64,000 bases of DNA from Cellulosilyticum sp. Its GTDB lineage: Bacteria; Bacillota; Clostridia; Lachnospirales; Cellulosilyticaceae. This document shows positions 4,305 through 62,091 of the stretch, in pieces (position 1 is the first letter of the stretch; each line of letters begins with the position of its first letter). The notes under the pieces were generated by a model that was given only the letters and a program-made list of their open reading frames with translations, did no database searches and was not told where the DNA came from. The stretch is taken from assembly GCA_015058045.1 (NCBI GenBank), contig SVDC01000003.1:1-64000 (forward strand), in the 5' to 3' direction. The translations under genes were made by a program, and so were the position numbers.

Positions 4305-4754
4305 TTATATATAATAAATTTGTGAAGTATTTTGATTTATTTTTTCATAGTCATCCATTAATTGGTCTAAAGTAATATTATCAACCACACGATCAATACT
4401 ATCTCTAATCTTTTCCCAAACGGTTTTAGTTACGCATTTTCCATCTAAAGCACAGTGTACAGTGTTTCCTTTGCATGTACAATCTGTCGGCGCAAGTGAA
4501 CCTTCTAATGCTCGTAAGATTTCTCCAATTGTAATTTCACTTGGCTCCTTAGCCAAGGCATAACCACCTTGTGCACCTCTTACACTGACGACTAAGTGAT
4601 TTTTCTTAAGTAGTGCCATAAGTTGTTCTAAGTAGTTCTCTGACATCGAAAGCCTCTCTGCTATGCTTTTTAGAGATATGTGCTTTTCTTTTGAGTAAAC
4701 CCCTAAGTCAACCATAGCTTGAAGACCATAACGTCCTTTTGTTGATAATCGCAT
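4305..4754 (-). CDS. iscR: Rrf2/IscR family transcriptional regulator
   Basis: MRLSTKGRYGLQAMVDL start is typical of Rrf2; Cys region CTCKGNTVHCALDGKC; the ORF-track start at 4829 is probably too long. Confidence 0.9.
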   Translation of the reverse strand: MRLSTKGRYGLQAMVDLGVYSKEKHISLKSIAERLSMSENYLEQLMALLKKNHLVVSVRGAQGGYALAKEPSEITIGEILRALEGSLAPTDCTCKGNTVHCALDGKCVTKTVWEKIRDSIDRVVDNITLDQLMDDYEKINQNTSQIYYI

Positions 4755-4795
4755 GTCTTCACCTCCAATTCCTACCTCAACGCTCGGAATTATAT

Positions 4796-4816
4796 TTCCT
4801 AGCTTATCACTAGGAA
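4796..4816. promoter_or_regulatory. Candidate operator upstream of iscR (perfect inverted repeat)
   Basis: TTCCTAG-CTTATCA-CTAGGAA; on minus strand it lies just after TTGACA (-35-like) and before the MRLSTKGRYG start. Confidence 0.5.
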
Positions 4817-4960
4817 TTAATTTTGTCAATAACTAGATGAGATATACTTATTTTTGTCAAAATCTCTCACTAAATCTTATGTTCAATCCTTGATAAATTC
4901 TATATTTTTCTTATTAAAATCTTTTTTCTTTTTATTAACTCGTCCGTTTCTATTGTACAA

Positions 4961-5245: not shown

Positions 5246-5572
5246 ACTGTTTTAACTGAATAAATAAAAAAGGATTCTATCCTTCCCCAAAGGGGATACT
5301 ATACCATTTTAACTTCTTATGGTATATACTATGCACCTTCTAAAGCATATGTGCTACTTTTTTTATTTTTAGGATATTTTTATTTAATTTGGATTCATTC
5401 TCCTTTTTCACTATATATTATGCCACTCCCAACTTTCATGTTATTTTTTTACGAAATTTTTTTCATTTCTTTTTTTATCTTCATCCTGCACATTAAATAT
5501 TTTATAAATATGTTCGCTTTAACAATATCTTATTGCTATACTAAATAATACCTTATAACATTTAATTTTGAT

Positions 5573-21011: not shown

Positions 21012-21280
21012 AAAAAAACCTCATCCCGTTAACGGGACGAGGAATATTCCACGTGTTACCACCCATCTTGCTAAATTTACACAAATGTAAATTTAACCAC
21101 TCGCTAGGTTCTATCAAACCCTTGCCTATAACGGGGCTTCCGGATATTTCCTACGTAGTCATAAGGTGACCGTTCAGAAATTCTGCTCTAGAGCGAGCCG
21201 CTTTTGACCACAATGTTAGTTCTCAGCACCACTAACTCTCTGAAATTGCTACCGCAAAAGCTCTTCTCCTTCACTGCATT
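21012..21280 (-). promoter_or_regulatory. T-box leader (tRNA-sensing) upstream of ilvB-ilvN-leu operon
   Basis: Minus strand: AGAGAG Stem-I element, T-box ATGGGTGGTAACACG (21052..21066), terminator CCTCGTCCCGTTAACGGGATGAGG + T7 (21019..21042). Confidence 0.92.
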
Positions 21281-21469
21281 TTTTAATCATTTTTAATTTA
21301 TTAGTATTTTAACAACAATAATATCCAGTGTCAACATTTATGTTCTAATTTTATATTTAATTTTACATTTTTCTGTCTATTCTAATTTGTATATAGTGTT
21401 ATTTTATTTAACAAATAACTATTTAGAACCTCTTTTTAATAAAAATAAACTTAAGATAATCAATATACA

Positions 21470-35296: not shown

Positions 35297-35297
35297 A

Positions 35298-35398
35298 CAC
35301 AGTCGTCGATTACTTCCTACGTTGGCATTACCCAAATCAGGTTAAAGGGTCGAAGTTAGATGACTTCCTCTCAGCCTGCTTCACAAGCTCCCCTGTCA
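35298..35398 (-). promoter_or_regulatory. TPP (THI element) riboswitch upstream of thiMED
   Basis: Minus strand contains GGGGAGC..GCTGAGAGGAAG..GACCCTTTAACCTGATTTGGGTAATGCCAACGTAGGAAGT, close to the THI-box consensus. Confidence 0.96.
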
Positions 35399-35548
35399 TA
35401 TTTTTTATTTATAATATAATAACCAAAACAATTTGTCAATTATTTCTGAAAACTACTTACTTACCCTTACATCTATATTATCAAAACGTTAACCCCTAAT
35501 ATAAATCATGAAATTTAAACCAATCTCATAATAAACTTTATTCGTACG

Positions 35549-49216: not shown

Positions 49217-50470
49217 ATGTTTACTTTACACGGTACTTTTACTAAAGAAACCAATTTTTTTAAAGAAAATAATGTCTATGATTTAAAAGAGCAATATGGA
49301 AGCCCACTCTATATTTATAATGAAGATTTATTAAGAGCACGTTGCAAAGAAATGAAAAATCTAGTAACCTATAAAAATTTTGTGCCACATTACTCTATTA
49401 AAGCCAACACAAATATTCACCTATTAAAAATAGTTCACGAAGAAGGTTTACATGCAGACGTTATGAGTCCTGGTGAAATCTATCTTGCCCTTGAAAGTGG
49501 TTTTAAACCAGAAGAACTCTTCTTCATTCCAAATAATGTTGTACCTGAAGATATGCAATATGCTATTGACCACAACATCACAACAAGTGTAGATTCTTTA
49601 GACCAACTTAAACTCTATGGTGAGCTTAATCCAGGTGGCAAAGTTGCTATTCGCTTTAATCCAGGAGTAGGTGCAGGACATCATGAAAAAGTTGTAACAG
49701 GCGGTAAAAAAACAAAATTTGGTGTTAATCCCGAGTATATTCCGGAAGTAAAACGCATCCTTGAAACTTATAACCTTACTGTAGTTGGTATTAACCAACA
49801 TATTGGTTCTTTATTTATGGACTCTAAACCCTATATTGATAGTCTTTCTTCCATCTTAAATATTGCAAGACAATTTGACGATTTAGAATTTATTGATCTT
49901 GGTGGTGGTTTTGGTATTCCCTATCATAAACAAGATGGCGAGATGCGATTAGATATCAAGGCACTTGGAACAGCTTTAGATCCAGTACTTCAATCTTTTT
50001 CTGAGGAATATGGAAAAGAAATTCAGTTCCAAATTGAACCTGGGCGCTATATTCCGTGTGAATCTTGCCTACTACTTGGTCAAATTACCGCTACCAAAAC
50101 CAATGCAGATCATCAATATCTTGGATGTGATATTGGATTTAATGCACTTCAAAGACCTATTATGTATGATTCCCATCATGATATCGAAATCTATTCAAAA
50201 GAGCAAAAAGAAGCTTCTTTAGTTCCACTTACAGTAGTAGGTAATATCTGTGAAAGTGGTGACATCTTAGCTAAAGACCGTATGCTCCCTAAATCTGCCT
50301 GCCGTGGGGATTTAATTGCCATGATGGATGCAGGTGCTTATGGCTATAGTATGGCATCTTGCTATAATCAACGTTTCAGGCCGGCTGAAATCTTAATTTG
50401 CTCAGATGGAAGCGTCAAACAAATTAGAAAACGTGATACCTTTGAAGATTTAATTCGTAATATGCTTTAA
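49217..50470 (+). CDS. lysA: Diaminopimelate decarboxylase-type PLP enzyme
   Basis: YGSPLYIYNEDLLRARC, YSIKANTN, NQHIGS, LDLGGGFGIPY-like, EPGRYIPCE, CESGDILAKDR, DAGAYGYSM. Confidence 0.85.
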   Translation: MFTLHGTFTKETNFFKENNVYDLKEQYGSPLYIYNEDLLRARCKEMKNLVTYKNFVPHYSIKANTNIHLLKIVHEEGLHADVMSPGEIYLALESGFKPEELFFIPNNVVPEDMQYAIDHNITTSVDSLDQLKLYGELNPGGKVAIRFNPGVGAGHHEKVVTGGKKTKFGVNPEYIPEVKRILETYNLTVVGINQHIGSLFMDSKPYIDSLSSILNIARQFDDLEFIDLGGGFGIPYHKQDGEMRLDIKALGTALDPVLQSFSEEYGKEIQFQIEPGRYIPCESCLLLGQITATKTNADHQYLGCDIGFNALQRPIMYDSHHDIEIYSKEQKEASLVPLTVVGNICESGDILAKDRMLPKSACRGDLIAMMDAGAYGYSMASCYNQRFRPAEILICSDGSVKQIRKRDTFEDLIRNML

Positions 50471-50475
50471 TCCAT

Positions 50476-50516
50476 AAAGAATGAGAAAATCATTACTAGA
50501 TTATCTCATTCTTTTT
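50476..50516 (+). terminator. Terminator downstream of lysA
   Basis: AAAGAATGAGA..TCTCATTCTTTTT. Confidence 0.8.
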
Positions 50517-50629
50517 CTATTACTTATGTAAATTCTTAATCCTATTTCTATTGGAACTATTTTTATGTATTATCTAATTTAATAGGTCTATACTCAACAA
50601 ATTATTTCTATTTAGTGTAAATAAAGTGA

Positions 50630-50660
50630 AAAGGCAGGCCCTTGGGGTATGGCCTGCCTT
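50630..50660. other. GC-rich perfect hairpin in intergenic region
   Basis: AAGGCAGGCC-cttggggtat-GGCCTGCCTT. Confidence 0.6.
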
Positions 50661-50839
50661 CTCGTTCCGTTCATATTTTATAAACAGGAAAATAGATATA
50701 TTATGGGGAGATTTTGTAAGCAAAAGTTTTATCTCTTGCTTGATATTTATATTACACCATATTTATTAATAAAATATGAATTACAATTTAACATTTTATG
50801 TTGCCTTTATTCTAGTTCCCACTTCTATCTTAAAATAAT

Positions 50840-50884
50840 AAAAAGAGATATAAAATCCATTACTAGGATTTATACCTCTTTTTA
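50840..50884 (-). terminator. Terminator downstream of yajC
   Basis: AAAAAGAGaTATAAAaTCC..GGAtTTATAcCTCTTTTT. Confidence 0.8.
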
Positions 50885-50895
50885 TTCATAGAAAA

Positions 50896-51318
50896 TTATT
50901 TATCTTTTTTTACTTCCCCAATTTCGTTTCCGTTTTCGTCTACTTCAACTTCTACTTCTACGTATTCGTATTCTACACCATTTTCATCTACAAGGTCAGC
51001 TTTTTTACCAACTGTTAAGTTTGGTTCTGCTGCACGTGCTACAGTAGATTTTAAAACTGGGATACGAACACTTTTATTTAAACCAAATTCAACGATTAAT
51101 GTATCACCAATAACATCCATTACTTTACCATACATTCCTGAGTTAAGAAGAACAGAATCTCCTACTTTAATGCTATTTTGCATTTCTTCCACTTGTTTTT
51201 GTTGTTTCTTTTGAGGTCTGATTAAGATAAACCACATAAGACCAATGATTACAGCGTAAATAACAATCATACTTACTAAGCCACCACCAGCACCTGCTGT
51301 TAATAATACAGTATTCAT
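50896..51318 (-). CDS. yajC: Preprotein translocase subunit YajC
   Basis: VIIGLMWFILIRPQKKQQKQVEEMQNSIKVGDSVLLNSGMYGKV. Confidence 0.95.
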   Translation of the reverse strand: MNTVLLTAGAGGGLVSMIVIYAVIIGLMWFILIRPQKKQQKQVEEMQNSIKVGDSVLLNSGMYGKVMDVIGDTLIVEFGLNKSVRIPVLKSTVARAAEPNLTVGKKADLVDENGVEYEYVEVEVEVDENGNEIGEVKKDK

Positions 51319-51332
51319 TTGAATTCCTCCAT

Positions 51333-52463
51333 TTATTTATTGTTTTTATATCCTTCTAGACGCATTTTTTTATAGTTAGCAAATTCGCCTTTATCTAATG
51401 CATCTCGAATTTCTGTCATTAAGTTATTAAAGTAGTGAAGGTTATGCATAACGCATAAGCGCATACCTAACATTTCTTTTGCCTTTAATAAGTGTCTAAT
51501 ATAAGCTTTACTATATTTTTGACATGTTGGACAATTACAGTCTTCTGCAATTGGGCTCATATCTTTTTCATGCTTTTGATTGAATAAATTAAGTTTACCT
51601 TGGTTTGTATAAACATGTCCATGTCGACCATTACGTGCTGGAAGTACACAGTCAAAGAAATCAATACCACGATCTACTGCTTCTAAGATATTTTCTGGTG
51701 TTCCTACCCCCATAAGGTAAGTTGGTTTATTTTGAGGTAAATATGGTACAACCGCTTCTAATACATTGTACATTTCTTCATGAGATTCACCCACAGCAAG
51801 TCCACCTACAGCATAACCTGGTAAATCAAATTCTCTAATAATCTTAGCGTGTTCAATACGAAGGTCTGGCATAATACCACCTTGGTTAATCCCAAAGAGC
51901 ATTTGCTGTTTATTAATGGTATCCTCTAAACTATTTAAACGATCCATTTCTACCATACAACGTTTTAACCATCTTGTTGTACGTTCTACAGATGGAATAA
52001 TATAATTACGATCTGCTAATGCAGGTGGACATTCATCAAATGCCATTGCAATAGTTGAACCTAAGTTAGATTGTATTTGCATACTTTCTTCTGGTCCCAT
52101 GAAAATCTTACGACCATCAATGTGCGAAGAAAAATATACCCCTTCTTCTTTAATCTTACGCATGGCTGCAAGAGAAAATACTTGGAAACCGCCTGAATCT
52201 GTCAGAATTGGTTTGTTACAATTCATAAATTTATGAAGCCCACCTAATTCCTTAATCAGCTTATCTCCTGGTCGTACATGTAAATGATACGTATTAGAAA
52301 GTACCACTTGTGTACTAATGTTTTCTAAATCCTCTGTAGATAAGGCCCCTTTAATAGCCGCTACTGTTGCTACATTCATAAATACCGGTGTTTCAATGAC
52401 ACCATGAGGTGTGTGAAAACGTCCTCTTTTGGCACGCCCTTCTACTTTTAGTAATTCATACAT
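51333..52463 (-). CDS. tgt: tRNA-guanine transglycosylase
   Basis: RGRFHTPHGVIETPVFMNVAT, LTDSGGFQVFSL, GGLAVGE, DCNCPTCQKYSKAYIRHL zinc site. Confidence 0.98.
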   Translation of the reverse strand: MYELLKVEGRAKRGRFHTPHGVIETPVFMNVATVAAIKGALSTEDLENISTQVVLSNTYHLHVRPGDKLIKELGGLHKFMNCNKPILTDSGGFQVFSLAAMRKIKEEGVYFSSHIDGRKIFMGPEESMQIQSNLGSTIAMAFDECPPALADRNYIIPSVERTTRWLKRCMVEMDRLNSLEDTINKQQMLFGINQGGIMPDLRIEHAKIIREFDLPGYAVGGLAVGESHEEMYNVLEAVVPYLPQNKPTYLMGVGTPENILEAVDRGIDFFDCVLPARNGRHGHVYTNQGKLNLFNQKHEKDMSPIAEDCNCPTCQKYSKAYIRHLLKAKEMLGMRLCVMHNLHYFNNLMTEIRDALDKGEFANYKKMRLEGYKNNK

Positions 52464-52645
52464 CTGATGTCTCCTATCTAAATTTCATACTAGTTAATAG
52501 TGTACCGTAAAATGACTTTATTTTCAATAAGTCTTCCCTTATTTTTATGAGTTTAATCATGGTTTCTATCTACTTGGGTTGATGTTTTCCTTCATTGTAT
52601 GATAAAATTAAACTTATTTAGATAATTTACAAAGGGGGCATCATA

Positions 52646-53743
52646 ATGTCTGGCTCAATATTTGGTAAAATGTTTCGCATCTCTACCTTTGGGGAATCTC
52701 ATGGGACTGCCCTTGGTGTGGTAGTAGATGGTTGCCCTTCTAATATACCTATTACATTAGAAGATATTATGAAGAATATGAATAGACGAAAGCCTGGTAA
52801 TGGGCAGATTGGTACCACCAGAAAAGAAGCTGATGAAGTCGAAATTTTATCTGGTATTTTTGAAGGAAAAACTACCGGTACACCTATCGCCTTACTCATT
52901 CGCAATACCAATCAACGTTCTGGTGACTATGGAAAAATCAAAGAGGTATATCGCCCTTCTCATGCAGATTATACCTTTGATCAAAAGTACGGTATTCGTG
53001 ACTATCGTGGAGGTGGACGTTCTTCTGGTCGTGAAACAGCAGCTAGAGTTGCTGCCGGCTCTATTGCTAAACTCTTTTTAGACCAATTAGGCATTAAAGT
53101 AACAGCTTATACCCGCTCTATTGGTTCTGTAAGAGTAAATGATGAGGACTTTAACTTATTTGAAACCTCTCAAAATCCAGTCACTATGCCTAGTAATGAA
53201 ACAGCACAAAAAGCTCTAGAGCTTATAGCCAAAGCGAGACAAGCTAAAGACTCTATTGGGGGTACTATCGAATGCATGGTAACAGGTCTTAAGCCAGGTA
53301 TCGGAGAAACGGTTTTTGATAAGTTAGACGCCTCTTTAGCTTATGCTGTTATGGGAATTGGAGGCGTTAAAGCTTTTGAAATTGGTGAAGGGATTCATGC
53401 CTCTACTATGTACGGCTCTGAGTATAATGACGGATTTACTATGAAAGATGGTAAAGTGACTAAAACGAGTAATCATTCTGGTGGTATTTTAGGTGGGATG
53501 TCTGATGGAAGTGACATTCTCATTAAAGCCCACTTTAAACCTACACCATCTATTGCTAGAACGCAGCAAACTATTACAACTACTCTTGAAGATACAACTA
53601 TTGAAATTACAGGTCGTCATGACCCTGTAATTGTTCCTCGCGCTGTTGTCGTCGTAGAATCTATGGTTGCCCTGACTCTTGCTGATTTAATTTTATGTGA
53701 CTTAGGGGCTAATATAGAAAATATAAAAAAACTCTACCATTAA
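52646..53743 (+). CDS. aroC: Chorismate synthase
   Basis: GESHGTALGVVVDGCPSNIP, RPSHADYTFDQKYGIRDYRGGGRSSGRETAARVAAG, RHDPVIVPRA. Confidence 0.98.
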   Translation: MSGSIFGKMFRISTFGESHGTALGVVVDGCPSNIPITLEDIMKNMNRRKPGNGQIGTTRKEADEVEILSGIFEGKTTGTPIALLIRNTNQRSGDYGKIKEVYRPSHADYTFDQKYGIRDYRGGGRSSGRETAARVAAGSIAKLFLDQLGIKVTAYTRSIGSVRVNDEDFNLFETSQNPVTMPSNETAQKALELIAKARQAKDSIGGTIECMVTGLKPGIGETVFDKLDASLAYAVMGIGGVKAFEIGEGIHASTMYGSEYNDGFTMKDGKVTKTSNHSGGILGGMSDGSDILIKAHFKPTPSIARTQQTITTTLEDTTIEITGRHDPVIVPRAVVVVESMVALTLADLILCDLGANIENIKKLYH

Positions 53744-53769
53744 TTTACCTCATCCTTTTAGACTAAACA

Positions 53770-53816
53770 ATAGACCAGTAAAATAAAAGAGCTTCCCTTC
53801 TATTTTACTGGTCTAT
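53770..53816. terminator. Bidirectional terminator between aroC and the Cys-repeat protein gene
   Basis: ATAGACCAGTAAAATA-N15-TATTTTACTGGTCTAT perfect 16-bp stem. Confidence 0.85.
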
Positions 53817-53833
53817 TTATCGTTATTCGTTTC

Positions 53834-54550
53834 CTATAAACGGCATTCCTTTTTCTTAGGCCATACCTCAAGAACCGCTTGAATATTTACTTTATAACAC
53901 TGTTGTTCTATCCTTTGATAATTACAATGACAAACTTTTAGCTTATAATAACATGCGCTTTTTCTTTCAATATTTTTATATGTCTGTTTAATGTAATCTG
54001 TATAACATTTTCTTTGTCCCAACTCATTACAATATAACAAACTATACTCATACTGAACGTCTAAATAATCTTCATTTTTTACAGAGTACCAGCTTAATGC
54101 ACATTGGGTAGGATGGATTTCATATATACAATGAGCATTAGATAATTTAACTACTTTACACCCTTTGTCTAATCTAATCTCTTCTAATGACTTTCCTATT
54201 TCATTTTCTAGCTCTACAGTTTTTACCTCTTCTTTTTCCTGTTCTATATGCTCACAAGATAATTGATTTTTTAAAATACATGGAGGTTTATGATTTAATA
54301 TTGATTTTTTTACCCCTACTCTACATAAATCACATGGATAACATGATTCACATGGATAACATGGTTCACATGGATAACATGGTTCACATGGATAACACGG
54401 CTCACATGGATAACACGGCTCACATGGTGTTGATTTGGATAGAATATTAATAATGCAATCATTACTTTTAGTCTTTAAATTGATGTGCATTTGATTATGA
54501 TGATACTCACCCGTTACATACGCTGTATTGATTAGGAATGGACAGTCCAT
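53834..54550 (-). CDS. Cys-rich protein with (PCEPCY)n repeat, function unknown
   Basis: 238 aa, about 26 Cys; upstream AAAGGAG; 27 nt after the DUF11 gene stop. Confidence 0.85.
   Translation of the reverse strand: MDCPFLINTAYVTGEYHHNQMHINLKTKSNDCIINILSKSTPCEPCYPCEPCYPCEPCYPCEPCYPCESCYPCDLCRVGVKKSILNHKPPCILKNQLSCEHIEQEKEEVKTVELENEIGKSLEEIRLDKGCKVVKLSNAHCIYEIHPTQCALSWYSVKNEDYLDVQYEYSLLYCNELGQRKCYTDYIKQTYKNIERKSACYYKLKVCHCNYQRIEQQCYKVNIQAVLEVWPKKKECRL
54331..54428. repeat. 18-bp coding tandem repeat (about 5.5 units)
   Basis: CACATGGATAACATGGTT unit repeated from 54331, with AT/GG and CGGCT variants. Confidence 0.95.
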
Positions 54551-54577
54551 AAACTAGTACTCCTTTACTCATTTTAC

Positions 54578-57500
54578 TTAAAAATTAACATTTACACTAA
54601 ACCGTACCGTAGCTGTAGAATTAACAGGAACTCTTCCTACTAAAATACCACCTGTAGATGGCTCTGGACTTTTGTTAGTAGGACCAACACTTCCAACATA
54701 AGTTGAATTTGGTCTATATGTGGTTCTCTCTGGCAATATATCCGTAACAATAACATTCGTTAAATCAACATTACCTGTATTTCTAACGTAAACAGTGTAT
54801 TCTATAATTTTACTTGTTCCATCATTAACAATAATGGTTGTACTTGCATATTTCTCTACGATTAACTCTGGTTTAATAATTTCTACATTGGCAACATCAG
54901 ATGGTACATCTGTTTCTCTAACGATTGTTTGACCATTAAAATACGAGTAATCTACTAATGCTTGATTGCTTATTGTATCTGGTGCTGTACTTAAAACTGT
55001 TCCATTAAATGTAATAATACCAACTGCTCCAACCCCTAATGTTCCTAAACTAATGCCTGTAGCTAATGTAGGCTGAGGCGTTACTAAAACATTGTTCACC
55101 CTAATATTTGAAATAGACATATAACTTAGATCTGCACTCGTATCTCTTACCACTACATTTTCAATAGGCTCCGTTGAAAGATTGGTCACTGCAATACTAT
55201 ATTGTACTGTATCCCCTATGGCTGCATTAGTTGGTGTAACAACTTTATTAAACTGCACATTAATATCCTGAACATCAGTTGTTACTGTTGCTTTTTCTGG
55301 TGTTCCATTATATACAACACCATTAACATCTGTATAGGTATAACTTGCCAAATTGGCTGTATTTACTACATTTCCACTTACATCTTGCTTAATAGTAGCT
55401 GTAAATGTAAGCGTATATACATTATTAGGTGCACTATCCTTACTTGGAATGGTTCCAATACTATATCCTGTTGATAATGTAGCATAAGGTATAGGATTAG
55501 TACTATCATATGTTGTCTTAGAATCGATGATATCTTGAAGTACAACATTATCAATTGGAAGACTTGAGTTATTTCTAATCGTAACAGTATAGGTGAGTTG
55601 TTGCCCTTCAATGGCTTGTGAAAGATTTACTGTTTTGGTCAATAACACATCTATGACATCTGTTACGGCAGGGTCACTTGTATCACTAATGTTTCTTACA
55701 TCATCTGGATTAACTGTATATTGTGCCGTTCCTTTAGCCGTATTTTCAAAAGCGGCCCAAAGAATATTATTAATTGAAGCTCTAAATGTTATCATACTAC
55801 TTTCTCCTTCATTAATTTGTGAGATTAAAATACCGCTTGCTATAGAGCCTACAGGTGGCTGCCCATCTACCAAAACACTAGATTCATCTACTGTTAAACC
55901 CGGCGAAATATTGATATCATAAACATGAATATTGGTAAGTGGTATATCTCCTGTATTAGTCACTGTTATGGCATAGTTAATCAAATCGTTAGCTGTAACC
56001 ACAGCTGGTGTTGCAGATTTTTCGACAAGTATACCTGGTGTAACGGGCGTAACCGTAACAATATTACTTTGTTCTGTATAGGGAATAGGTTGTAAAAAAT
56101 ACGTGTAGGTTACTGCCCCTCTATCTTGGTAATTTGTAATCCCTGAAGTAGATGTCACTCTTAACCTAAACGTAACAACTATTGGCGTTGTACTAGAAGC
56201 TAAGGTTCCAAGCGATACACCTGTTACAATAGACGCACTAGTATCGGCAACTCCATCAATTGTGACACTACCTACAACAAATTCCATCCCTATTGGAATA
56301 GAATCTGTAACCACAACGTCTTCTGCTGCTGCCGTTCCCGTATTTATTATATTCAAAGTATAAAGTACCTCATCACCCAATACAGCCTGACTCACCGCAC
56401 TGCTTTTTACAATTTCTAAATTAGGTTCATTGGTATCAATTACAATCGCAGCTGCATTTAGCAAAACGCTTTCACTTGTGCTGGCTACACGCAAAGTTGC
56501 ACTTGTTTGTAGCGGATCTAAATGACTTGGTGGAATTTGAATATTAGTAATATCCCAACCTTGTCTTGCTGCACTTGTGCCTATATATGCAGTTCCTGAA
56601 GAGTTAAGCAAATGATTTCTATTACTAAATGTTCCAGTTGTTGTATTGAGTAATCCTTCATCATTATTAATTTGAGAAGCAAAAAAATTGCCTGCTAAGT
56701 TATTAGGCCCTGATAAAGGCTCTGTCAAATTAGCATTTCCCGTTGTAGCAAAAAAGACTTGGTCTCCTACTAGTGAATAATCCCCCTCAAATGCACTTAA
56801 TAGTAGTCGTGCCTCAATATCTGGGCTATTTGGCGTCACAAAATCAGTTAGTGTTTCTTCTGCAAAGGAAACATCAGATATTATAGGTACACCACCTACA
56901 TAGAGCGTTACACTTCTTAGTGGCTCTGTATTTCCTGTTAAATACCGATACACAACAGCTAAAGTCCATCCAGAACCTGCAAACCCATAGGCTTCATTAA
57001 TATCATTTGCGCTTAATATTGCAGGTACTCTACCCACAGTATAGCTACCACTACCTGCTTGAGCTACGTAATCTGTTACAATAGCTGACCTGGTATAAGC
57101 ATAAATTCCTAGATCATCTGACATACTATATTGCCCTTTTGTAGCCTCTATAGGTGTTATCTCTATAGGTATTTGCATCAAAGGTGTTTGAAATGTTATT
57201 GGATTATCTAGTCGATCTTCAATCGAGTTGTTCCCATATCTATAAGAACCACCCCATATGAGTTCAGCATAAACAACTTCTGTATCATTAGGTAAATTCA
57301 AAACAGCTTCTGAATTACTTGGAATATACATTGTATCTAGTGGTAAGTCACATGTTGTTCCATAGGGAAATGTTGTTCCACATCTACTTGTGGTATCAGT
57401 CGTAACAAAGGCTCCTCCTATATCAAATGTTCCAGCTACACGTTGGCCCGTTTGAAAAAAGTTATTTATCCTTCTAGATAGTGTTAAAACATTTCCAATA

Positions 57501-57613
57501 AAAGTGATATTTCCATAAAGCCGATCCGAATACTGCTCTACCAAAGGCATAAAATATGCCACCCTTTTTAGAAATCTACCATATCTTATGCTTCCTTTTG
57601 ATATTAAGTTCAT
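54578..57613 (-). CDS. Large DUF11-repeat (conserved repeat domain) protein
   Basis: 1011 aa; unique N-terminal ~400 aa then about five repeats of the type LEIVKS..GDEVLYTLNIINTGTAAAEDVVVTDSIP; RBS GGGAG. Confidence 0.88.
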   Translation of the reverse strand: MNLISKGSIRYGRFLKRVAYFMPLVEQYSDRLYGNITFIGNVLTLSRRINNFFQTGQRVAGTFDIGGAFVTTDTTSRCGTTFPYGTTCDLPLDTMYIPSNSEAVLNLPNDTEVVYAELIWGGSYRYGNNSIEDRLDNPITFQTPLMQIPIEITPIEATKGQYSMSDDLGIYAYTRSAIVTDYVAQAGSGSYTVGRVPAILSANDINEAYGFAGSGWTLAVVYRYLTGNTEPLRSVTLYVGGVPIISDVSFAEETLTDFVTPNSPDIEARLLLSAFEGDYSLVGDQVFFATTGNANLTEPLSGPNNLAGNFFASQINNDEGLLNTTTGTFSNRNHLLNSSGTAYIGTSAARQGWDITNIQIPPSHLDPLQTSATLRVASTSESVLLNAAAIVIDTNEPNLEIVKSSAVSQAVLGDEVLYTLNIINTGTAAAEDVVVTDSIPIGMEFVVGSVTIDGVADTSASIVTGVSLGTLASSTTPIVVTFRLRVTSTSGITNYQDRGAVTYTYFLQPIPYTEQSNIVTVTPVTPGILVEKSATPAVVTANDLINYAITVTNTGDIPLTNIHVYDINISPGLTVDESSVLVDGQPPVGSIASGILISQINEGESSMITFRASINNILWAAFENTAKGTAQYTVNPDDVRNISDTSDPAVTDVIDVLLTKTVNLSQAIEGQQLTYTVTIRNNSSLPIDNVVLQDIIDSKTTYDSTNPIPYATLSTGYSIGTIPSKDSAPNNVYTLTFTATIKQDVSGNVVNTANLASYTYTDVNGVVYNGTPEKATVTTDVQDINVQFNKVVTPTNAAIGDTVQYSIAVTNLSTEPIENVVVRDTSADLSYMSISNIRVNNVLVTPQPTLATGISLGTLGVGAVGIITFNGTVLSTAPDTISNQALVDYSYFNGQTIVRETDVPSDVANVEIIKPELIVEKYASTTIIVNDGTSKIIEYTVYVRNTGNVDLTNVIVTDILPERTTYRPNSTYVGSVGPTNKSPEPSTGGILVGRVPVNSTATVRFSVNVNF

Positions 57614-57666
57614 TCAATCTCCCAATTGTACTTTGTATTTACAATAATTTTATTTTTACCAAACAA

Positions 57667-57705
57667 AAAAAGATAGATAGTGCATTTAATACACCACCTA
57701 TCTTT
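57667..57705 (-). terminator. Terminator downstream of the FliB-partner gene
   Basis: AAAGATAGaTAGTG..CACcACCTATCTTT followed by T-run on minus strand. Confidence 0.7.
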
Positions 57706-57743
57706 CTTCAACGGTTTATCTTTATTGAATCTTATGAAATCTA

Positions 57744-58343
57744 TTAGATTGCCTTGATGATTAATCGTTTATTTTCCTCTACCACTTTAATACGGAAGTT
57801 TTTGCGAATCCCTTCCATACTACGAAGCTGATTAATGAGTCTTAAATTTTGTGTATCTACAATACGCTTAATCATCGGCATAATATCTTCTTTTTCTTTA
57901 GCAGATAACTTATTTCTTAAACAGTACGTATTAATGGTTTTTAAAGTTTCTATAACACTGCTTTCATTTAAGCGTGTTAAGTCTACTAAGGCATAAGTAT
58001 ACGCCTTAGTTTTTACTTGATTTGCAAATGTCTGTTTATAAAAACGTATAAAAGTATTTTCCTCACCTTTTGTAGGTGCTGCAAATTTACCTAGATTGTT
58101 TCTTAATTCATTTTTTAAATAGACCATGGTATTAACTTTAATATCTTGTCCAAGTGCCTCAATTTGTTTTTCTATCCATTCATAAACCTTTTTTACTTCG
58201 GCTTCTTGCATCCCATCTTTTGCAAGTTTACGAATGCTTGCTATATAGTCTAATATGTTTTTCTTTGTAGTAAGTGGTTTGGCTTCAAGTGCCTCAAAAA
58301 TTTCTTCTGCAGAATAACCTGCATATAATGTTTCGTTTGCCAT
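57744..58343 (-). CDS. Hypothetical protein, helical, co-transcribed with FliB-like gene
   Basis: 199 aa; 13 nt downstream of the FliB-like ORF. Confidence 0.8.
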   Translation of the reverse strand: MANETLYAGYSAEEIFEALEAKPLTTKKNILDYIASIRKLAKDGMQEAEVKKVYEWIEKQIEALGQDIKVNTMVYLKNELRNNLGKFAAPTKGEENTFIRFYKQTFANQVKTKAYTYALVDLTRLNESSVIETLKTINTYCLRNKLSAKEKEDIMPMIKRIVDTQNLRLINQLRSMEGIRKNFRIKVVEENKRLIIKAI

Positions 58344-58356
58344 TTGTACTTCCTTT

Positions 58357-59526
58357 CTACTTACCTGCTAATTGTTTTTTTATTTGCTGTATATACAATA
58401 CATTATGGTCAAAGACTCTTGTAAATCCCTGAATAAGTTTTACAATATCTATTTCTACTAAACTTTCTTTATGCGCTGCTTGTCCTATAAGATGTAAACG
58501 AATCAGTGCATAATATAAATACATTTCTTCTAAACTTTCTAATGGTGAACTTTGGTTAATAGGAACCAGTCTCTCATAGATATAGTTTACAAAATAATTT
58601 TCTAAAATATAAGGGTACGTCTCTAAAAGTGTACTTTGATAAATCGTTTCACCTTTTTTGTACTGATCTTTATCACAAGCTTCCCCTAAACCTTCTAACA
58701 TAGACATATAACATGCTTCATAGATAGCTGATGGCCATTTCTTCTGACTTCTCATCCCAGTTAAACAAGCCAGTAACTTTTTTGCCATCTCTTCACTTGT
58801 ATAGTACTCTAATAAAGCTGATTTTTTCGGACTACGTAGGTATTGCTCTTTACACCCTTTATCTTGCATTTCTTTTAAGAAAAGTGAAAGCTTTTTAAAA
58901 TCTTGACGTGATTGACACGCATGAAACTTCATCATAACCTGTTCAAAAGCTTGCCATTTGTCTTGGATATTATAGCACTTTTCTTGCCATATATCACATA
59001 AAACCTCTCTCATTTTCAATAAGTAATCTTCAAAATGCTTTGGCTGTGTAAGTTGTAACTTTAAAGAGGCCCCTACAACTGGCAAACTAGAACACTCTTG
59101 CATCTCAAAACTAATAGATTGCTTACTAAGTAAAACCTGACGTGCTGCTTCTGGGCAAGATAATGCAAGAGATAATTCCACTTGCTCCCCTAATGCATTG
59201 GTATTGCGTGGATACATCGTACATGTTTCGCTTAAATACTGTTCACCTAAATTTTTATAGATATCACATAAGTTTCCCTTATCTAAGAAAGCGCAACGAT
59301 TATTTTTTAATTTAATCTTTGCCGCACATTCCGTACTATTTCCTTTCTTTACAACCAATTCTTTATCTAAGCGCTTTTTCATATCAGGATTTTTTACTTT
59401 TTTGTATTTTTTATAAGTTGCTTCATCAACGGCAATATACCATCCCGCGCAACAAGTCTCTTCACACTCTCCTGCAATACATTTAAAGTTTGCCATATAA
59501 CTTGGCACCATCATCCTTTGTTTCAT
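58357..59526 (-). CDS. Flagellin lysine-N-methylase (FliB)-like Cys-rich protein
   Basis: MVPSYMANFKCIAGECEETCCAGWYIAVDEATY, NRCAFLDKGNLCDIYKNLGEQYLSETCTMYPR. Confidence 0.85.
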   Translation of the reverse strand: MKQRMMVPSYMANFKCIAGECEETCCAGWYIAVDEATYKKYKKVKNPDMKKRLDKELVVKKGNSTECAAKIKLKNNRCAFLDKGNLCDIYKNLGEQYLSETCTMYPRNTNALGEQVELSLALSCPEAARQVLLSKQSISFEMQECSSLPVVGASLKLQLTQPKHFEDYLLKMREVLCDIWQEKCYNIQDKWQAFEQVMMKFHACQSRQDFKKLSLFLKEMQDKGCKEQYLRSPKKSALLEYYTSEEMAKKLLACLTGMRSQKKWPSAIYEACYMSMLEGLGEACDKDQYKKGETIYQSTLLETYPYILENYFVNYIYERLVPINQSSPLESLEEMYLYYALIRLHLIGQAAHKESLVEIDIVKLIQGFTRVFDHNVLYIQQIKKQLAGK

Positions 59527-59621
59527 GTTCTATTCCTTCCTATCCAATCTTATATCCACTCATTTTATCTCTAGAAATTTTATTTCTTATTTTTTCTTTA
59601 CTACCAATGGTTGAACTATAC

Positions 59622-60059
59622 TTATAGACTTTTTTCAATTAAGTCCTTTAAACTTTTTTCAAAAGCTATATCTTGATCTTTACTTCTTTTTTTTGGGCCT
59701 TTTATTCGCCCGCCTCTTCTTCTTGCCTCTCTTCCTAAATGTCTTCTAAATAATAGTTGGTCAATATTCCCCTCTGTATAAATAAATCCACTTTGATGAA
59801 TTGGTTTTGCTTTCTTAGCAAGTGCCACTGCTGCTAAACCATAATCTTGCGTCACCACAATATCATTTACTTTAATATCATTTAGAATTTTAAAATCTAC
59901 TGCATCACTTCCCATGGAAACATTGATTACCTCAATGCCCTCACGCTCAATAAAATGCGCCATATCACAGAAAATAATAACTTCTATCCCATAGTTTTTT
60001 GCAATTTCTATTGTTATATCAATAACTGGACAAGCATCCCCATCGATTAATATCCTCAT
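59622..60059 (-). CDS. YaiI/YqxD (DUF188) family protein
   Basis: MRILIDGDACPVIDITIEIAKNYG, VTQDYGLAAVALAKKA, RRGGRIKGPKKR. Confidence 0.92.
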   Translation of the reverse strand: MRILIDGDACPVIDITIEIAKNYGIEVIIFCDMAHFIEREGIEVINVSMGSDAVDFKILNDIKVNDIVVTQDYGLAAVALAKKAKPIHQSGFIYTEGNIDQLLFRRHLGREARRRGGRIKGPKKRSKDQDIAFEKSLKDLIEKSL

Positions 60060-60212
60060 CTATACACCTACTTTCTCTCTGCTACTCTATATTATCATCA
60101 ACTACTTACATAATAAACTACATTCTTATTCACCACACTTCTATCCCTTAGTGTTAAAATAATGAATTTGACACAAACTAAGCCCAGTAACTGATTTGAT
60201 AGGAGGGCCCTT

Positions 60213-61037
60213 TTGAAATCTAAATCATTCATCTTTCTTTTTTTTATAACTATTTGTATAAGCTATAGCATCATTCTTGTATATCTATATATGACGCCTC
60301 ACTATACACCTAAAGTTCATCCTATTAATCTCAGTTCTATGTTAGAAAAACAATCTTTTACTTCATTTGATTATGAGCTTTTATTTAAACAAACAGGCCT
60401 TACTCAACCTATTATAGATGAACTTCATTCTGATCCAGAATTCAAAACTCAAGTACTTGCTTTCCAGCAAGATTATTTAAAAGAAGTGACCATTAAAAAT
60501 GTTTATCTGGCACCTACTACCTTTTGCCAATTTGTGATTGATCCATCTACTAAGCAAAACAAAAAAGCTTTTACTCTAGCTCCTTACCACAATGGTTATT
60601 TATTATTCACAAATGCTACACAAACTTTAGGTTGGCGTCACGGACATGTGGGACTGGTTGTAGATGAAATTCGTGGCTTAACACTAGAAGCACTCCGTCC
60701 TGGAACGGTTAGTTGCCTACAAAATATACACAAGTGGGAATACTACCCCACATTTAAAATGATGCGCCTAAAAAATGTTTCAATGGATGATTTAAATTAT
60801 ATTTCACAATATGCCCTAGCACAATTAAGTGGACTCCCTTATAATATTCTAGGTGCTAAAAATCAAAGTACTTTGCAAGATACCCATTGTTCTTTACTGA
60901 TTTGGCAAGCCTTTTATCATTTTGGCTATGATTTAGACTCAAATGGTGGTTTTTTTGTGACACCTAAAGATCTTACCTGTAGTCCTCTTTTAGAACTACT
61001 ACAAACTTATGGATTTAACCCTAACAAGGATTGGTAA
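60213..61037 (+). CDS. Membrane-anchored permuted NlpC/P60 (YiiX/YebB-like) protein, putative
   Basis: N-terminal TM; GWRHGHVGLVVDEIRGLTLEAL and THCSLLIWQAFYHFGYDLDSNGG resemble catalytic His and Cys regions. Confidence 0.65.
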   Translation: MKSKSFIFLFFITICISYSIILVYLYMTPHYTPKVHPINLSSMLEKQSFTSFDYELLFKQTGLTQPIIDELHSDPEFKTQVLAFQQDYLKEVTIKNVYLAPTTFCQFVIDPSTKQNKKAFTLAPYHNGYLLFTNATQTLGWRHGHVGLVVDEIRGLTLEALRPGTVSCLQNIHKWEYYPTFKMMRLKNVSMDDLNYISQYALAQLSGLPYNILGAKNQSTLQDTHCSLLIWQAFYHFGYDLDSNGGFFVTPKDLTCSPLLELLQTYGFNPNKDW

Positions 61038-61038
61038 T

Positions 61039-62091
61039 ATGAAAAGAATACTTTTATTTATAGGTAGCATTTGTCTGCTGCTTATTGGCTTTTTAATATG
61101 TTTTAACCCTATTGCTGCCAGCACACCTGTCATGCAAACCCTAAAAGGCACTACCTTAATTGATCGATTAACAGAGGATTCCTTTAAGATAGAGCTATTT
61201 TATAGCGATTTGAGCTTATCTCAAATTGAATCATATGAAGTGACTGCTTCTCACATAGAGCCTTGTTCTACACCCTACACAAGTTTTACAGAAGGCTTTA
61301 TCTCATCTGATAAGCATGCTATCCTTTTGGATGCTGTTAATAAATATCGTCACTTCCAAGGCTTAACGCCTATTACTTATTATCATAATTATATGGAGAT
61401 AGATAACTATGGATTCCTATCATTAACAGAAGGTCTTGGTACGCTTTATATTATTAATTTATCTACCTATGAAATAACTACCCCTTCTTTTGACTCTGAA
61501 TATGCCTTAGAAAGTCAATATGTCTATCATATTGTAGAAGGAGCAGACGTTTACTACATTCTAACAGCCCAAGCTAATAGCTATAAAGCTTTTTGGTATG
61601 CTCTAAGTAAAGATACTTTTGAGTTAAAAGCTTCTCGTAAGCTTTCTCCTCCAACTAAAGCTCTACAATCTAATCAATATGCTTTAGACCGTAATGGTAG
61701 TGCATACTTTATCGGTAGCAATAGTTTACTGGTTATTACACCAGAGGAAACCATTAATATTCCTTTAACCTTTGACCCAGATACAGTTTATTACGCAGAT
61801 GGACAAATTTATACGTTATCACTGTCTGAACTCTTCCTAAACTATGCCGTTTATAATGAAGATGTAGGCCTTTCTCAATGGGGACAAGTTAACTTACCCA
61901 ATAAATTTGCATCACTTGTAAGCTGCACGATCAAAAATAATATTTTATATACCGTCACATATGATGAAAATCATCCTTTATACCGTAACTATCTCACACT
62001 TTACAGTTTAGAGAATAATAATATTATTTATTGCTTGGCACTTAAATCACATAGTGGTCTACTGGCTCTTCAAAATGCACATTTTCATTAA
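61039..62091 (+). CDS. Hypothetical exported/membrane-anchored protein
   Basis: N-terminal hydrophobic MKRILLFIGSICLLLIGFLICF; start 1 nt after previous stop; long beta-rich extracellular region. Confidence 0.75.
   Translation: MKRILLFIGSICLLLIGFLICFNPIAASTPVMQTLKGTTLIDRLTEDSFKIELFYSDLSLSQIESYEVTASHIEPCSTPYTSFTEGFISSDKHAILLDAVNKYRHFQGLTPITYYHNYMEIDNYGFLSLTEGLGTLYIINLSTYEITTPSFDSEYALESQYVYHIVEGADVYYILTAQANSYKAFWYALSKDTFELKASRKLSPPTKALQSNQYALDRNGSAYFIGSNSLLVITPEETINIPLTFDPDTVYYADGQIYTLSLSELFLNYAVYNEDVGLSQWGQVNLPNKFASLVSCTIKNNILYTVTYDENHPLYRNYLTLYSLENNNIIYCLALKSHSGLLALQNAHFH

Follow-up and report, generated by a model that had tools for sequence, protein, structure and literature searches.

How a large DUF11-repeat protein might be joined to a cysteine-rich protein encoded directly behind it is the question raised by a pair of genes on the minus strand of a 64-kb stretch of Cellulosilyticum sp. 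DNA (the whole of which is called the window here). A sequence-only reading had picked out this pair as a possible spore-surface system. The elements it described are all present: two open reading frames (ORFs), at 54578-57613 (1011 amino acids; P1) and 53834-54550 (238 amino acids; P2), the 27-nt gap between them, DUF11-type repeats in the first, 26 Cys residues in the second, and a terminator-like hairpin on either side. A further feature, which that reading had not seen, is that as judged by profile comparison the P1/P2 gene boundary cuts through a DUF11 unit. It is considered somewhat probable that the two proteins form a spore-surface structure in which strands of P2 complete the last unit of P1, and P2 is an anchor fixed by its cysteines. 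The genes are:

54578..57550, minus strand: P1 gene, 990 amino acids from its likely start at M22 (the listed ORF extends to 57613)
53834..54550, minus strand: P2 gene, 238 amino acids with exactly 26 Cys (40% identical neighbour in a second species)

Five matches above curated cut-offs are found in P1 (PF01345, 137.8 bits with a cut-off of 24.6; TIGR01451 B_ant_repeat, 162 bits with a cut-off of 24). The earlier count of about five repeats has to be corrected to four complete units and one incomplete one, according to a unit profile of 131 positions built from complete internal DUF11 units:

56033..56419, minus strand: DUF11 unit 1, complete (Pfam DUF11; segmentation)
55649..56032, minus strand: DUF11 unit 2, complete (profile 1-129 of 131)
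55259..55648, minus strand: DUF11 unit 3, complete (profile 1-131)
54866..55258, minus strand: DUF11 unit 4, complete (profile 1-131; strands in a structure model)
54581..54865, minus strand: DUF11 unit 5, incomplete, without the last 3-4 strands (putative acceptor; profile 3-88 of 131, Pfam to 85 of 114, model strands ending at 215-224)

The Pfam DUF11 model, which is independent of the unit profile, places the end of the last unit at 85 of 114 and the ends of the other units at 93-109. In an AlphaFold2 (AF2) model of units 4 and 5 (predicted local distance difference test score, pLDDT, 93.4), the last strand of unit 5 is the counterpart of 79-88 in unit 4; strands 95-98, 101-108, 111-119, and 123-128 of a complete unit are all missing. 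The unit fold is immunoglobulin (Ig)-like by Foldseek, with low template modeling (TM) scores. Profile positions 2-103 are covered by a solved DUF11-like domain (9ifr), which thus includes the strand after the break.

What P1 appears to lack, P2 may supply. The following segments can be distinguished along it:

54440..54535, minus strand: P2 residues 6-37, end of a DUF11 unit (putative donor segment)
54323..54424, minus strand: P2 residues 43-76, (PCEPCY)n Cys-rich repeat (tandem array; Cys positions)
53837..54199, minus strand: P2 C-terminal Cys-containing region, residues ~118-238 (relatives only within the genus)

The head of P2 matches profile positions 97-125 at 4.6 bits, and none of 2000 shuffles did as well with a model from its own group; with a Paenibacillus model, 9 of 2000 did. 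With the tail of P1 and the head of P2 joined, the match covers 3-126 instead of 3-88 and scores 9.8 bits more (75.9 against 66.1), while all of 100 shuffled heads remained below the real one (maximum 70.7 bits). Between P2 and the second protein of a paralogue locus in genome G178, of the same genus, residues 6-37 are the only sizeable alignable part. The (PCEPCY)n region is an 18-bp tandem array (54330-54427; 5.4 copies, 96% matches), and Cellulosilyticum sp. RGIG8824 has CKPC/CTLCKPRP where the window has CEPCYP; the repeat therefore evolves fast. P1 holds only 2 Cys. Searches of Pfam, NCBIfam, and PDB gave no convincing match to P2, and identification of its C-terminus as a SPOCS/SipL coat-assembly domain was rejected (hhalign probability <3%).

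Many genomes share this break point. Among 60 loci with two genes, the profile match of the final P1 unit stops at position 87-90 of 131 in 59, nearly always leaving 0-3 residues of P1, and the match of the second protein (its first ~60 residues) starts at 87-97 in 58; these loci are not independent, being mainly from Paenibacillus, a group of Clostridia metagenome-assembled genomes (MAGs), and a Cellulosilyticum/Anaerosporobacter group. Single-gene relatives (loci L075, L094, and L095) have a complete last unit, the profile match ending at 127-128, and other loci without a second gene end in other domains. In a Priestia protein the sequence goes on beyond the break as RNKSFITFSCGKITFSNQVLTVICKSCSGSNCICD, in which the missing strands and then a Cys tail (CKSCSGSNCICD) can be read by eye. 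The two-gene linkage proposed earlier is thus kept, but a Cys-rich partner is found only in Cellulosilyticum (two species) and Anaerosporobacter; in the other carriers the second gene encodes another DUF11 protein.

In four Paenibacillus loci (L024, L026, L028, and L040; assamensis, arenosi, SC116, and agilis) the second frame has no start codon. A conserved C7 run (CTCCCCCCC) lies just before the P1 stop in these, with the DUF11 repeat carried on in the -1 frame, and a frame change at this run would join both halves. The junction is a candidate for programmed frameshifting or slippage, or for phase variation. In most other Paenibacillus loci, the two genes share a 4-nt ATGA overlap.

At its other end, P1 carries a domain that can be followed well beyond the genus:

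56426..57550, minus strand: N-terminal all-beta head domain, 375 amino acids (AF2 pLDDT 84.8, predicted TM score 0.90; no Pfam match of its own)

The N-terminal ~400 residues had been called unique, which they are not: there are 355 related loci in one-per-species genomes, the best 80 of which were taken for detailed comparison. The majority of these 80 are from Paenibacillus, and named carriers among them are Paenibacillus, Priestia, one Bacillus sp., Anaerosporobacter, and Cellulosilyticum, along with Clostridia MAGs. Outside the genus, the head occurs together with DUF11 units in Anaerosporobacter, a Eubacteriaceae MAG, small-genome Clostridia MAGs, Priestia, and many Paenibacillus. The nearest relative, Cellulosilyticum sp. 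RGIG8824, has the same neighboring genes (tgt, aroC), with 75% identity for P1 and 40% for P2. Only two of seven sampled genomes of the genus carry P2, and the head domain is rare in sampled relatives from the order, class, and phylum; the distribution is therefore patchy. A PDB sequence search with the head gave nothing useful, and no fold relative is claimed for it: the AF2 model is confident, but Foldseek returned only local jelly-roll-like similarities (TM <=0.25).

Two further relatives may be mentioned here. A secreted DUF11 protein of Thermus thermophilus HB8 (plasmid pTT27; L101:2228-5215) has an N-terminal region related to the P1 head, with a weak match to DUF3344 (PF11824) that suggests to what family the head may belong. 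The G178 locus (contig C220; L006:5353-7247) is organized like the window pair, with a head lacking its first ~145 residues and a different second protein of 182 amino acids, and is possibly a truncated or decayed paralogue.

The start of P1 bears on both its length and its expression. The 1011-amino-acid ORF exists as listed, but the most likely start is M22 at 57550 (MPLVEQYS...), which gives 990 amino acids: the upstream ATG is separated from M22 by a 1-nt indel in the second species, a good ribosome-binding site conserved in that species precedes M22, and most homologues begin at or near the same place with an MPLV...-like sequence. The upstream ATG itself falls inside a sigma-K-type promoter match.

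57559..57569, minus strand: likely ribosome-binding site AAAAAGGGTGG before M22
57582..57610, minus strand: sigma-K-type promoter match AACT-N16-CATAAGATA, just upstream of M22
54560..54566, minus strand: likely P2 ribosome-binding site AAAGGAG, 10 nt from its ATG (also in locus L019)

The promoter match is exact to the consensus used in PMC5749712, of which ~4 chance matches are expected in the window on both strands, and is a consensus match rather than evidence of use. It is kept as CACT-N16-CATAAGATA in the second species, and so is present in both Cellulosilyticum genomes with the pair. Upstream of the P1s, no match to the sigma-E consensus was found. Sigma-K, the other of the two sigma factors suggested earlier, may control this locus. 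Two more sigma-K consensus matches in the window (5325-5352 and 5414-5441, minus strand) lie upstream of an Rrf2-family regulator gene (4305-4829).

DUF11 repeats are usually found on surface proteins, and Cys-rich, low-complexity proteins without signal peptides occur in spore coats and exosporia assembled from the mother cell. P1 and P2 of the window have no hydrophobic N-terminal stretch, which bears out the earlier statement that neither has a visible signal peptide, and none of 76 spore-former P1s has a signal-like (strongly hydrophobic) N-terminus. The remote homologue in T. thermophilus HB8 begins with a typical signal; homologues of this kind in non-sporulating organisms, named earlier as grounds against a spore role, were met with only at this distance. 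SpoIVA is encoded in all seven carrier genomes tested, two of them of 0.9 Mb. On Priestia megaterium plasmid pPmC-142-6 (L100:7607-10896), a 485-amino-acid P1 relative consisting of the head domain, one DUF11 unit, and a Cys tail lies amid three genes for S-Ena appendage proteins, adjacent to IS4 transposases, and a partial second copy of the cluster is on another plasmid, pPmC-129-9 (L121). On a further Priestia plasmid, a CotX-family gene is found ~1 kb from a “tandem-95” relative. Among other fused relatives, only Priestia taiwanensis has any S-Ena genes, at a distance of ~0.8 Mb. The spore-surface idea is thus partly supported, by spore-former carriers, signal-less P1s, a sigma-K match in two species, S-Ena neighbors, and precedent for DUF11 spore proteins.

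In the arrangement that would follow, P1 and P2 would together make up a spore-surface structure, produced by the mother cell late in sporulation. P1 would be an elongated rod in which the 375-amino-acid all-beta head is followed by four Ig-like DUF11 units and then by a fifth that lacks its final strands. The N-terminal strands of P2 would insert into this open domain in the manner of donor-strand complementation, followed along P2 by the (PCEPCY)n linker and the Cys-containing domain, and the cysteines of P2 may crosslink it into the coat or exosporium. The outcome would be a fibre or adhesin (P1), head outward, on a disulfide-fixed anchor (P2). By analogy with donor-strand pilins, completion of the last P1 unit by P2 strands would be the simplest account of the split, and F-Anchor-3 (PMC11952670) could be seen as a covalent version of the same logic.

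Several observations weigh against this account. The P2-head scores are low, as noted for the window, and the P2 head of Anaerosporobacter gave no profile hit. The match of the Priestia protein stops at 105 of 131, so the completeness of its last unit was judged by eye. Of the 80 homologous loci, only 5 have a complete sigma-K match upstream, against 1.0 expected, and the promoter evidence is therefore local, not general. SpoIVA in carriers is weak evidence alone, because 70 of 97 genomes of the class have it. The C-terminal region of P2 has no detectable relative beyond the genus, and S-Ena (PF13157) and DUF4183 genes are absent from the window genome, which rules these out as partners there.

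The alternative that survives best, although unlikely, is a spore-surface pair in which no strands are exchanged. P1 would then have a last unit that is stable alone, the P2 strands would form a separate hairpin or dock on P2 itself, P2 would be a co-expressed Cys-rich crosslinker, and the boundary would be left over from gene fission. The weakness of the P2-head similarity and its absence in Anaerosporobacter are compatible with this, as are the high AF2 confidence (93.4) for the incomplete unit modeled without a partner and the leader between P2 start and donor segment, which differs among species. The position of the break argues the other way: it is the same in all but one of the 60 loci, which come from both Bacilli and Clostridia and whose second proteins differ widely, while relaxed leftovers would be expected to drift. 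Single-gene relatives, in addition, retain the end of the unit.

A self-contained polymer is quite improbable. Here the incomplete last unit of one chain would receive its missing end from the N-terminus of the following copy of the second protein, making that protein the shaft of the fibre and P1 its tip or base. This reading draws on ~10 Clostridia MAG loci where a second protein of ~252 amino acids begins with the missing unit end and itself stops at profile 85-89, and therefore consists of donor, full unit, and acceptor. Because the window P2 has a donor segment but lacks a DUF11 acceptor, the window pair cannot be of this kind, though the Clostridia MAG branch may be. Proteins with this end-of-unit, full-unit, unit-start layout are encoded at L015:4946-5704 (minus strand) and its equivalents in L044, L066, L071, and L086-L098; they are circularly permuted two-unit proteins that could polymerise head to tail. 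A vegetative cell-surface adhesin pair, exported non-classically and unrelated to spores, would fit with DUF11 being common on cell surfaces and with the occurrence of the head in a signal-peptide-bearing Thermus protein. It has little probability, given that 76 of 76 P1s lack a signal-like N-terminus, that there is no anchor, that a sigma-K-type promoter match is kept in two species, and that the carriers are either named spore formers or have a SpoIVA gene.

The preferred strand-completion account can be set beside several known systems. DUF11 proteins with proposed sigma-K promoters occur in or near the spore appendages of Clostridium taeniosporum, whose ribbon-appendage cluster (P29a/b, CRD1/2) shares DUF11 repeats with P1; it differs in being a nine-gene cluster with the collagen-like GP85, and a Cys-rich partner is not mentioned in the available part of the account (PMC5749712). 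By eye, no collagen-like frame is present by the window pair, among ORFs at 50000-62000. F-Anchor-3 of the Clostridium aceticum F-type endospore appendage (F-ENA) combines DUF11 units with a CsxA-like domain, and its DUF11 units are in a proposed link from spore fibre to CsxA exosporium lattice, but it is one covalent protein with DUF4183 and CsxA-like domains (PMC11952670); DUF4183 is absent from P1 and P2 as well as from the window genome. S-ENA are disulfide-locked spore fibres (PMC8619143), similar in that a P1 relative stands among three S-Ena genes on the Priestia plasmid; P1 and P2 themselves are not Ena proteins, and neither has a PF13157 match. CsxA, ExsY, and CotY are Cys-rich exosporium lattice proteins with disulfide-based spore-surface assembly (PMC7333573). 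P2 shares with them a high Cys content (26 in 238 residues) and the lack of a signal-like stretch, but searches of Pfam, NCBIfam, and PDB showed no convincing sequence relation to them.

In donor-strand-complemented chaperone-usher pilins, an Ig-like domain without its last strand or strands is completed by the N-terminal extension of a neighbor. The last Ig-like unit of P1 similarly lacks C-terminal strands (profile end 88 of 131; AF2 strands), and the complementing segment is at the N-terminus of P2, as far as a sequence match can place it. P1 and P2 differ in having no visible secretion signal, chaperone, or usher, and in belonging to a different Ig-like family. In the open-access literature, DUF11 and donor strand were found together only in the F-ENA preprint, with “donor strand” in a reference title, and no published description of the split-domain arrangement was found. 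DUF11 spore-surface proteins are already known; the coupling through a shared domain is the part that would be new, with the chances about even.

Somewhat more tentatively, the window pair may represent a general, undescribed way of building spore-surface fibres, in which an Ig-like DUF11 domain is split between neighboring genes and the products are coupled by strand donation. Second proteins would vary (Cys-rich anchors, DUF11 rods, possibly self-polymerising subunits) across Bacilli and Clostridia, and assembly would proceed from the mother-cell cytoplasm without secretion signal, chaperone, or usher. If true, giant surface proteins and their partners would be held together in many spore formers by a single domain shared between two gene products. 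The attachment of signal-less DUF11 proteins in or near known spore appendages would then have a testable explanation, and spore display would gain a ready-made pair of complementary halves. There is also a point for annotation: the second genes are listed as separate proteins, though their first domain would be shared with the neighbor.

The surroundings of the pair include its two hairpins:

57666..57708, minus strand: terminator-like hairpin upstream of the pair, 20-pair stem then a T-rich tail (T-run kept in the second species)
53772..53814, minus strand: terminator-like hairpin downstream of the pair, 20-pair stem

Farther upstream (57744-59526, minus strand) are two genes of 199 and 389 amino acids, neither with a Pfam match, whose position is conserved in the second species; the N-terminus of the 389-amino-acid product is Cys-rich. 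Elsewhere in the window, a T-box leader and a thiamine pyrophosphate (TPP) riboswitch (21030-21283 and 35297-35404, respectively; minus strand) were both found at Rfam gathering thresholds.

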